IMG/VR virus record: IMGVR_UViG_3300006810_000178
Span: 1-34,056 of that record
Strand: one strand, 5' to 3'
Length of the DNA stretch: 34,056 nucleotides
DNA from: a virus
The notes under the pieces are model-generated. The model was not told the DNA's origin. It saw nothing but the letters and a program-made list of their open reading frames with translations, and made no database searches. Both the position numbers and the translations under genes were made by a program. Of the stretch, positions 1,873 to 11,735 are shown one piece after another. Positions within the stretch are counted from its first letter, which is position 1. Each line of letters starts with the position of its first letter.

Positions 1873-1942
1873 ATAAGCGGATTTGATTATCAGATTCTAA
1901 AAGTTATTCAGGACACGGGGGCAGTTCCCGTCGTCTCCACCA

Positions 1943-2015
1943 GAAGAGTATTGGTTATCAGGGTTGGAATAAACCTGGTGTAATAGATTCTCCAAACGTC
2001 CAGTACTCTTTTGAT
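1943..2015 (+). other. tmRNA intervening segment, removed on maturation
   Basis: These 73 bases join the acceptor CCA to the first G of the coding piece. Bases 1944-1954 pair with 2000-2010 in an 11-bp stem with one G-U pair, so the precursor forms a long hairpin continuing outward from the acceptor stem. An inner short stem, CAGG at 1959-1962 with CCTG at 1974-1977, sits in the loop. In known permuted tmRNAs this segment is excised, with RNase P making the new 5' end of the coding piece; that is family knowledge and is not visible here. Confidence 0.85.
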
Positions 2016-2081
2016 GGGGACGATTCAGGTTCGACTGGTAATAAGTAAGTTCTCTGTAGAATACGCTATTTAAAAATAAAT

Positions 2082-2126
2082 GCTAACGATAACTTCAAAG
2101 CATTTGATTACGCCTTAGCTGCGTAA
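2082..2126 (+). other. tmRNA tag reading frame: ANDNFKAFDYALAA
   Basis: Fourteen codons from GCT (2082) to GCG (2121-2123), then TAA. With the alanine carried by the tmRNA the appended tag would read AANDNFKAFDYALAA. The terminal YALAA is the same as in the E. coli tag and is the type of C-terminus recognised by ClpXP and ClpAP. T2077 and A2078, at -5 and -4 from the resume codon, match the U85-A86 positions that set the frame in E. coli tmRNA. The frame is therefore intact and should be functional. Confidence 0.9.
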
Positions 2127-2195
2127 TCATTGGGCGGCCACTGCCTCGAAACAGAAGTGTGGCATTATTTCCTAAAATTTTATGAAAGGTTTAAC

Positions 2196-2846: not shown

Positions 2847-3431
2847 ATGAATGGTTATGAAGCTTATAAAGAATATCTTGCTTTAAAGCAACATTTTACT
2901 AAACCTACATACGATTATATTAAGTATAACGGCAAAGTAAGATCTAATCAAGATTCGTTTAATAAAAGAAAAGATAAAGTCTTTTTTGATAAACTAGCCA
3001 AACATGAAAATGTTCACAATTTCTTAATCGCAAATCTAGTTAAAGATCCTAAAGTATGGGTCAAAGAATTGGCGTATAGTGAAAATGCAGAACAGATTTA
3101 TTTGGAATGGAAAAAAAGGCAACAATCTTTATCTTATCATTTTAAGACGGAGTTGGGTAAATTAGATGAAGAATTTAATTCTAATTTTAAACCCACTAAA
3201 AACGAATCTCATCCATTTCTTTTTAGGTTATATTTGGCTGAAGTTATTAGCCTTGAAACATTATGTATTTTATTGAAAGTAACCAAATCGAAAAAATACT
3301 GGGATGATATTATGGAATATGATCCTATTTACGAAACTATAAAATTGACTATCGAAAAATATACGCCATTAATTAAGTTTGACGAAGATAAATATAAAAA
3401 GATAGTCCTTGAATTCTTCACAAATTTATAG
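2847..3431 (+). CDS. 59: gp59, loader of gp41 replicative helicase
   Basis: T4 gp59 (217 aa) is an all-helical protein that binds fork DNA and gp32 and loads the gp41 helicase. This protein is 194 residues, basic and helical, starts MNGYEAYKEYLALKQHFT and contains an FNKRKDKVFFDKLA segment, both in keeping with the family N-terminal domain. The C-terminal half (about 100-194) carries alternating helices ending near YTPLIKFDEDKYKKIVLEFF. Its place between gp33 and gp32 is the conserved T4 order and is the strongest support. It presumably belongs to one unit with gp33; gp32 additionally has its own promoter immediately downstream. Confidence 0.85.
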   Translation: MNGYEAYKEYLALKQHFTKPTYDYIKYNGKVRSNQDSFNKRKDKVFFDKLAKHENVHNFLIANLVKDPKVWVKELAYSENAEQIYLEWKKRQQSLSYHFKTELGKLDEEFNSNFKPTKNESHPFLFRLYLAEVISLETLCILLKVTKSKKYWDDIMEYDPIYETIKLTIEKYTPLIKFDEDKYKKIVLEFFTNL

Positions 3432-3434
3432 TAA

Positions 3435-3442
3435 TATAAATA
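3435..3442 (+). promoter_or_regulatory. T4-type late promoter ahead of gp32
   Basis: A second perfect TATAAATA, 4 bases after the gp59 stop codon, with predicted start near 3448. T4 gene 32 is likewise read from several promoters including a late one. The leader that follows begins directly with a stem-loop. Confidence 0.7.
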
Positions 3443-3515: not shown

Positions 3516-4421
3516 ATGGATTTTTCAAAACTTAAATCTCAGTCATCTAAATCTATGGATGATTTGACCAAAAAACTAGCGGCTGTATCTGGCAACGAAC
3601 GTTCTTCTGATGATCGTTTTTGGTCCCCAACTGTTGATAAAGCAGGTAACGGTTACGCAGTTATCCGATTTCTCCCAGCACCTAATGATGAAGACGTACC
3701 ATTTGTACGTTTGTTTGATCATGGCTTTCAAGGCCCAGGCGGTTGGTATATCGAAAACTCTTTGACCACAATTGGTCAAAATGATCCTGTATCAGAATAT
3801 AATTCAAAGCTTTGGAACAGTGGTATTGATGACAATAAAGCAATCGCCCGTAAGCAAAAACGTAGACTTCATTTTATTTCTAACATCTACGTAGTTGAAG
3901 ACCCGGCTAACCCTGCAAATGAAGGTAAAGTATTTCTTTATAAGTACGGTAAAAAGATTTTTGATAAGCTTAATGATGCAATGAATCCTCAATATCAAGA
4001 CGAAACGCCAATTAACCCGTTTGATTTTTGGAACGGCGCGAACTTTAAACTTAAAATTCGTAATGTAGAAGGATACCGAAACTATGATAAATCTGAGTTT
4101 GCTTCTCCTGGTGCTCTTTTGGATGATGACTCTGAATTGGAAGCAATCTGGAAACAAGAAGCTAGTTTGGCTGACTTCCTAAAACCAGATAACTTCAAAA
4201 GCTATGATGAATTGAAGCGTAAATTGGCCAAAGTTCTGGCCGAAGATTTGGAAACGGATCGTTCTAGTCGAGCAGAAACTATTGAGGAATTACAACCTAA
4301 ACCTCAACGAGAAATGGCAGCCCCTTCTATTGAAGAAGATGAAACCCCGCCATTTAGTATGAGTGGCGATGATGATGAGGATGATTCGTTAGAGTTTTTT
4401 GAAAACTTGGCAAATAAGTAA
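3516..4421 (+). CDS. 32: gp32 single-stranded DNA-binding protein
   Basis: gp32 coats ssDNA during replication, recombination and repair. At 301 residues it equals T4 gp32. The basic N-terminal region (1-25, KSQSSKSMDDLTKKLAAVSG) corresponds to the cooperativity domain; the core follows from FWSPTVDKAGNGYAVIRFLPAP and contains LTTIGQNDPVSEYNSKLW and FLYKYGKKIFDKL, typical of the OB-fold core. The C-terminus is a long acidic tail (about 245-301) containing DDDEDDSLEFFENLANK, which in the family binds other replication proteins. There is no cysteine in the protein, so the His/Cys zinc site of T4 gp32 cannot form. The ATG has an AAGGAAT site 6-12 bases upstream. Confidence 0.95.
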   Translation: MDFSKLKSQSSKSMDDLTKKLAAVSGNERSSDDRFWSPTVDKAGNGYAVIRFLPAPNDEDVPFVRLFDHGFQGPGGWYIENSLTTIGQNDPVSEYNSKLWNSGIDDNKAIARKQKRRLHFISNIYVVEDPANPANEGKVFLYKYGKKIFDKLNDAMNPQYQDETPINPFDFWNGANFKLKIRNVEGYRNYDKSEFASPGALLDDDSELEAIWKQEASLADFLKPDNFKSYDELKRKLAKVLAEDLETDRSSRAETIEELQPKPQREMAAPSIEEDETPPFSMSGDDDEDDSLEFFENLANK

Positions 4422-11105: not shown

Positions 11106-11735
11106 TTAATAAGTCACTAAAGGATCTTTCAATCCACCGCCTTCTATGGTAAACTGAGAATAAGTTATTGAGGTTGCAAGGCGTATTAAATCGCCTTTAT
11201 CGTTCCATGCTAATGGCATTTCCAACAAAGAAGAAGGGAATGCTTCGTATAGATTTATCTTTTTAACAATATTTCCGACCTGGTCATATAAAAATATTTG
11301 CATGGTACTTGTGTATTCACTTTTATATTTTGAAACATATTTTGGTATTCTAATTCCGGATTCCGAACCATTAAATTCAAATATAGTTCTCATCCAATCA
11401 TACCAAAAATGTAATAGATCGGCCTTTTTATCTAATAAGATAGAAAAAGTTGTATCGTGATAATATGAATTGAATGGGATCTTTTGGGTTGGACCAAATC
11501 CGAATCTTTGTACTTCAGCGGAAAGTAAAGAAACCCCAGGTATTTTTACTTGATCAATTCTATATCGTAATATGTCATTGGTTACATTAAAGAGGGACTT
11601 TTCAGTTCCATCATAACTTTCTAGTTTTTTATTTTGTAATATTGGCGGAATTGATAATGCAACCTCAAATGCATGAGGTTTTAAATAGCCATATCCGCTT
11701 ATATTAGATTTAAAATTGTTTAGGTTAAATCCCAT
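11106..11735 (-). CDS. tail-tube-like protein (gp54 tube initiator or gp19 paralogue)
   Basis: The 209 residues begin MGFNLNNFKSNISGYGYLKPHAFEVALSI, as tail tube proteins of marine T4-like phages do. Tube-family features follow: a DQVKIPGVSL strand, FGFGPTQKIP, DTTFSILLDKKADLLHFWYDWM and a final beta segment (RLATSITYSQFTIEG). T4 gp54, which starts tube polymerisation on gp48, is a structural relative of the gp19 tube protein and shows the same arrangement around its FRMD-W segment. gp48 is encoded just across the divergent promoter, which favours gp54. True gp19 normally sits beside the sheath gene, which is absent here. The 3' end of the gene upstream overlaps its start by one base. Confidence 0.7.
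   Translation of the reverse strand: MGFNLNNFKSNISGYGYLKPHAFEVALSIPPILQNKKLESYDGTEKSLFNVTNDILRYRIDQVKIPGVSLLSAEVQRFGFGPTQKIPFNSYYHDTTFSILLDKKADLLHFWYDWMRTIFEFNGSESGIRIPKYVSKYKSEYTSTMQIFLYDQVGNIVKKINLYEAFPSSLLEMPLAWNDKGDLIRLATSITYSQFTIEGGGLKDPLVTY

Follow-up and report, generated by a model that had tools for sequence, protein, structure and literature searches.

A circularly permuted tmRNA gene behind a predicted late promoter in a T4-like bacteriophage

Known two-piece tmRNAs of phages and bacteria

Phage two-piece tmRNAs of the alphaproteobacterial type were reported in 2022 for the Methylophilales phage Melnitz and its relatives (PMC9004378). In the same study, ARAGORN assigned a two-piece form to 53 of the 133 unique tmRNA structures from phages; aquatic samples accounted for 50 of these 53. 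For the tmRNA of Melnitz, the study reports an early promoter together with a glutamine riboswitch (PMC9004378). This was the only paper found that discusses the expression of phage two-piece tmRNAs. The tmRNA database contains 79 unique bacteriophage sequences of all forms (PMC11915505). Phage-borne ssrA-like genes of the one-piece form are present in mycobacteriophages Bxz1, Wildcat, and others, as well as in Bacillus phage G, while the RNA of DS6A has no tag, unlike the tmRNA described here (PMC4131195).

The locus under study is located in a 34,056-nt stretch of DNA (IMG/VR record IMGVR_UViG_3300006810_000178, positions 1–34,056), which was analysed as a whole and is referred to as the window; all features lie on the forward (+) strand unless stated otherwise. 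Its tmRNA resembles that of Melnitz in being permuted and of the alphaproteobacterial type, and the annotated SsrA of Melnitz likewise stands shortly before gp33-gp59. The Melnitz tag ends in DYALAA, and an exact T4-type late promoter motif, TATAAATA, could be found 49 nt before the Melnitz T-stem. However, the two sequences are strongly diverged without a DNA match, and a search for a glutamine riboswitch at 1500–2700 of the window returned nothing even at E-values up to 5, unlike in Melnitz. The window tmRNA is a strongly diverged addition to the phage two-piece tmRNAs already published.

The Caulobacter-type two-piece tmRNA (RF01849) shares with the window tmRNA the permuted order, the G3-U70 stem, the GGC-type T-loop, and the ANDN tag start, whereas the window copy has a far lower alpha_tmRNA score (86 bits against 143–312 bits for the main copies in alphaproteobacterial genomes), a shorter H2 and pseudoknot-1 region, and a predicted phage late promoter in front. 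Permuted tmRNAs of the betaproteobacterial type are also borne by phages, namely at three related loci (L008, L009, and L012, all of RF01850 type) and in the Stenotrophomonas phages DLP_6 and Marzo; these differ from the window tmRNA in their T-loop (TTCGANT) and have no TATAAATA in front. To our knowledge, the tmRNAs of the mycobacteriophages and phage G are not permuted.

Identification of the tmRNA gene

ARAGORN, run in permuted mode, predicted a permuted tmRNA at 1848–2217 with the tag ANDNFKAFDYALAA. The Rfam model RF04321 (tmRNA_permuted) scored 94.7 bits (E = 2e-17; cut-off 47), and RF01849 (alpha_tmRNA) gave 86.4 bits (E = 3e-22; cut-off 50), the cut-offs being the curated gathering scores of Rfam. 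Among the three lineage tmRNA models, RF01849 was the only one that scored above its cut-off and was kept. The region 1878–2166 (+) is a complete, phage-encoded, circularly permuted tmRNA gene (ssrA). An earlier note, made from the sequence alone, had claimed such a gene at 1877–2165 and had proposed the ARAGORN and alpha-tmRNA searches as checks; both were positive, and the acceptor and coding elements were found at the positions claimed. Only the ends were shifted, to approximately 1878 (5′) and 2166 (3′), as the 5′ boundary was set by the promoter position. The gene is carried by three near-identical contigs, with a single SNP at position 1990, inside the intervening segment.

Organisation of the two pieces

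The acceptor (3′) piece of approximately 65 nt (1878–1942) was delimited by the promoter position and the encoded CCA. A predicted 8-bp hairpin at its 5′ end (1879–1897) is followed by the 3′ strand of the H2 helix (UUAUU, 1904–1908), whose partner lies at 2040–2044 in the ARAGORN structure; this helix, which would join both pieces, has approximately 5 bp and is shorter than in the alpha_tmRNA model. The T-arm (ACGGG-GGCAGTT-CCCGT, 1915–1931) shows the T-loop of the alphaproteobacterial form. The segment 1932–1942 consists of the 3′ strand of the acceptor stem, CGTCTCC (1932–1938), the discriminator A1939, and the encoded CCA (1940–1942). The intervening segment of 73 nt (1943–2015) forms a hairpin that extends the acceptor stem and is predicted to be removed on processing. 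The predicted fold of the precursor loop (1932–2022) had an energy of −37.5 kcal/mol compared to −21.1 kcal/mol in shuffled sequences (z = −5.2; 0 of 200 shuffles).

The coding (5′) piece of approximately 150 nt (2016–2166, with an approximate 3′ end) could be recognised by both RF01849 and RF04321. It begins with GGGGACGATTCAGGTTCGAC at 2016, after the CCA-ending acceptor half. Its first part (2016–2038) comprises the 5′ strand of the acceptor stem, GGGGACG (2016–2022), and a D-like loop with GGTTCGAC; a T-arm is present and a D stem is absent. All seven pairs of the acceptor stem (GGGGACG/CGTCTCC) are formed, including G3-U70. A resume site is present together with the tag frame GCT...TAA (2082–2126), which encodes ANDNFKAFDYALAA followed by a stop and ends in the hydrophobic AA. 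A predicted 9-bp hairpin around the tag end and the stop codon (2105–2129) resembles helix 5, and a 3′ terminal hairpin (2137–2163) contains the conserved AACAGAA. No clear pseudoknot 1 was seen by eye before the tag, where the region is shortened relative to the alpha_tmRNA model. Unconstrained cofolding of the two pieces did not recover the native acceptor stem; imposing the acceptor and T-stems on the cofold cost 1.5 kcal/mol.

Genomic neighbourhood

Comparison with PHROGs and Pfam revealed the window as part of a T4-like phage of marine type, with gp6, gp53, gp25, tail tube, gp32, gp59, and gp33-like genes. The gp6 protein was nearest to those of Caulobacter phage Cr30, Stenotrophomonas phage DLP_6, and Sinorhizobium phage phiM12, at approximately 35% identity. 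Downstream of the tmRNA lie genes for a gp33-like late-transcription coactivator (2619–2843; PF16805, PHROG 254), a gp59-like helicase loader (2847–3431), which served as the query for related loci, and a gp32-like single-strand DNA-binding protein (3516–4421), with TATAAATA in front at 3435. The placement of the tmRNA in a late region, as first described, was half right: it precedes gp33-gp59-gp32, which are late-transcription and replication genes, while it does have a predicted T4-type late promoter of its own.

Between the tmRNA and gp33, an ORF of 122 amino acids (2196–2564) starts in the manner of a signal peptide, has an aromatic C-terminus (LRYEW), and possibly codes for a small outer-membrane protein; no match could be found for it in Pfam, PHROG, or phage proteins. 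It is followed by a GC-rich hairpin (GGGGAGC-TTCG-GCTCCCC, 2574–2591), seen in the sequence as a possible terminator, which received no call in a terminator scan. A tRNA-Lys called by ARAGORN inside the tail-tube gene (11347–11441, −), without Rfam support, is probably false. A 59-kb contig (L069; IMGVR_UViG_3300034375_011170), nearly identical to the window over the part compared, has an array of eight tRNAs called by ARAGORN at approximately 2.4–5.6 kb.

Prevalence and conservation in related phages

A permuted tmRNA scored above the cut-off in 28 of 50 IMG/VR records sampled by a related gp59, and the 27 copies that could be placed lay 0.4–5.9 kb upstream of gp59 and on its strand. A further 155 gp59 loci, some on contigs seen before, yielded 77 with a permuted tmRNA on the gp59 strand. 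Since loci were picked by gp59, these frequencies describe the surroundings of that gene and should not be extended to T4-like phages in general. The earlier view of a permuted tmRNA in this position as very unusual is contradicted by these counts, as well as by the published cases of Melnitz and its relatives (PMC9004378). The copies upstream of gp59 at L008, L009, and L012 were of the betaproteobacterial type. Permuted tmRNAs were also present in phages HTVC008M, DLP_6, Marzo, and RHph_I1_18. In Pelagibacter phage HTVC008M (NC_020484; L062), the gene lies at 145161–145370, upstream of gp33, and is not annotated in the record; in DLP_6, Marzo, and RHph_I1_18, it is placed elsewhere, near or inside tRNA arrays. 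Neither the prevalence near gp59 nor the HTVC008M copy was found in the literature searched.

The HTVC008M tmRNA overlaps the end of a hypothetical gene, with no TATAAATA in front. In many related loci in which ARAGORN called no tmRNA (L017–L032), a tRNA-Glu(TTC) is located approximately 2 kb upstream of gp59.

Across distinct phage relatives, acceptor stem positions 4–7 covary while G3-U70 is kept. The finder used for this stem comparison demanded GG at positions 1–2 and seven pairs, and thus full pairing was given by construction and G3-U70 was not; the finder used for the promoter surveys described below imposed GGG/TCC, and the invariance of G3-U70 is taken from the stem comparison only. 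The T-stems also covary among distinct phage copies. The tags vary in length and sequence, but 32 of 33 begin with A-N-x or N-D-N and finish in AA. These patterns mark the tmRNA as a gene under selection.

A predicted late promoter at a fixed position

An exact match to the T4-type late promoter motif TATAAATA is located at 1865–1872, and therefore transcription would begin at the acceptor piece, with a predicted start at approximately 1878, which is the base of its 5′ hairpin. A sigma-70-like promoter (TTTACT, 17 nt, TATACT; 9 of 12 positions) could also be called at 1835–1863; such sites are not more frequent in the region than in shuffled sequences, which makes this call weak. The window holds 11 exact copies of TATAAATA, three of them in intergenic DNA, which makes up 3.8% of the window, and all three intergenic copies precede genes on the same strand, namely the tmRNA, gp32, and a head-closure gene.

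The position of the motif was then compared among phage copies. In a first set of 33 distinct phage tmRNAs, 15 had the exact motif starting 45–53 nt before the T-stem, and all 15 exact motifs within 400 nt upstream fell in this interval. Shuffled upstream DNA gave a mean of 0.026 loci and a maximum of 1. The 15 loci formed 12 groups without similarity in upstream DNA. The prediction of the promoter position was fixed in writing before it was applied to new loci. In this held-out set, 23 of 38 distinct tmRNAs had the exact motif 45–51 nt before the T-stem, with one more at 44 nt and no exact motif elsewhere in the 200 nt upstream; among held-out groups unrelated to the first set in upstream DNA, the motif was present in 12 of 22. 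It was found at this place in none of 43 alphaproteobacterial genes, many from genomes that are GC-richer.

These positions suggest that many phage tmRNAs, including that of the window, are immediately preceded by a late promoter of the phage itself. Roughly half of the phage copies are without the exact late motif. In several relatives, TTGACA lies 16–17 nt upstream of the promoter site, or of a −10 element immediately preceding that site, pointing to a combination of early and late promoters in these phages. A late promoter for any phage tmRNA was not found described in the literature searched, which covered few subscription papers, and the fixed late promoter is the main new point of this analysis.

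Proposed function and alternative explanations

T4 late transcription uses the sigma factor gp55, the coactivator gp33, and the clamp gp45. In the window phage, the late transcription system, with gp33 encoded in the window itself, would use TATAAATA to start the transcript at approximately 1878. The intervening hairpin of 73 nt would be cut out by host RNase P and 3′-end nucleases, leaving the acceptor and coding pieces of approximately 65 and 150 nt joined via H2 and the acceptor stem. Alanine charging by host AlaRS would rely on G3-U70, and host SmpB would deliver the RNA to stalled ribosomes, where the nascent chain would receive the ALAA-ended ANDNFKAFDYALAA and then be broken down, with host ClpXP as the most likely protease. 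The phage may benefit from a rescue RNA of its own when nuclease attack and mRNA decay yield many non-stop messages and host ssrA is shut off. This account of transcription, processing, charging, and benefit draws on established tmRNA biology. The earlier proposal that the phage supplies its own ribosome rescue is a sensible inference; however, it must lean on the host, as smpB was absent from the eight phage records searched, among them the 59-kb contig mentioned above, and the phage would therefore depend on host SmpB.

The anatomy, the conservation, and the promoter position are observed, and with them it is very probable that the gene gives rise to a functional two-piece tmRNA, transcribed largely late in infection, charged by host AlaRS and delivered by host SmpB, and tagging stalled chains. 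Alternatively, the phage RNA could chiefly block or redirect host trans-translation by competing for SmpB and AlaRS. Interference of this kind has been proposed for the tag-less RNA of mycobacteriophage DS6A (PMC4131195; PMC11915505), and the RNA of phages without smpB would draw on host SmpB in any case; nevertheless, nearly all copies have a complete tag frame and have kept the tag hairpin and the resume region, which a decoy would not need, making this explanation unlikely. For Melnitz, tagging of host proteins early in infection to recycle amino acids was suggested from an early promoter (PMC9004378), and the TTGACA elements of several relatives would fit such a role. Here, conservation is seen for a late promoter, which would be active when mostly phage proteins are made, and trans-translation targets stalled ribosomes without choosing host proteins; as the chief function, early recycling is thus very unlikely.

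The gene could also be a decayed, non-functional copy derived from a host, or an artefact of joining host and phage DNA during assembly, as could be proposed from its low covariance-model score and from the restriction of bacterial DNA similarity to short stretches. Compensatory stem changes, intact tags, the fixed promoter position across many lineages, a like placement in complete isolate genomes, and the three near-identical contigs argue against this explanation, which is extremely improbable.

In a broader sense, there is a reasonable probability that the split tmRNA is a standard regulated gene in a large group of T4-like phages, mostly from aquatic samples, with its own late (often early and late) promoter starting at the acceptor piece, by which the phage takes charge of rescuing ribosomes as virions are produced but still depends on SmpB from the host. 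The results show that split tmRNAs are more than a curiosity, being widespread and under selection in T4-like phages, and they indicate when these RNAs are probably made. Early expression, as proposed for Melnitz, is at odds with the fixed late promoter, which predicts two RNAs of approximately 65 and 150 nt that rise together with the late genes in infection time courses. The reason why a lytic phage would have a ribosome rescue of its own also becomes testable.

Type and origin

The T-loop GGCAGTT fits the pattern GGC[AG]GT, the form seen in 43 distinct alphaproteobacterial genes. The best-matching bacterial genes among those compared were also alphaproteobacterial, the only class that was sampled broadly. 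The suggestion that the phage gained the gene from its host lineage is plausible on the basis of this T-loop and these matches. DNA similarity to bacterial genes was confined to short stretches, mostly 30–40 nt of the acceptor piece. An exact 23-mer of the 5′ half was absent from 84,980 bacterial and archaeal genomes, and therefore no near-identical host donor was found. A DNA search of 50,697 phage records with the tmRNA also returned no match, despite the relatives recognised by structure.

A second diverged permuted tmRNA was observed in an alphaproteobacterial genome (G109, contig 5; L248:9464–9843), with 72.8 bits and the tag ANDNSPVAMAA. It is located beside tRNA-Pro, tRNA-Met, and tRNA-Trp, amid phage-like ORFs resembling portal, terminase, and capsid genes, and is probably a prophage copy.
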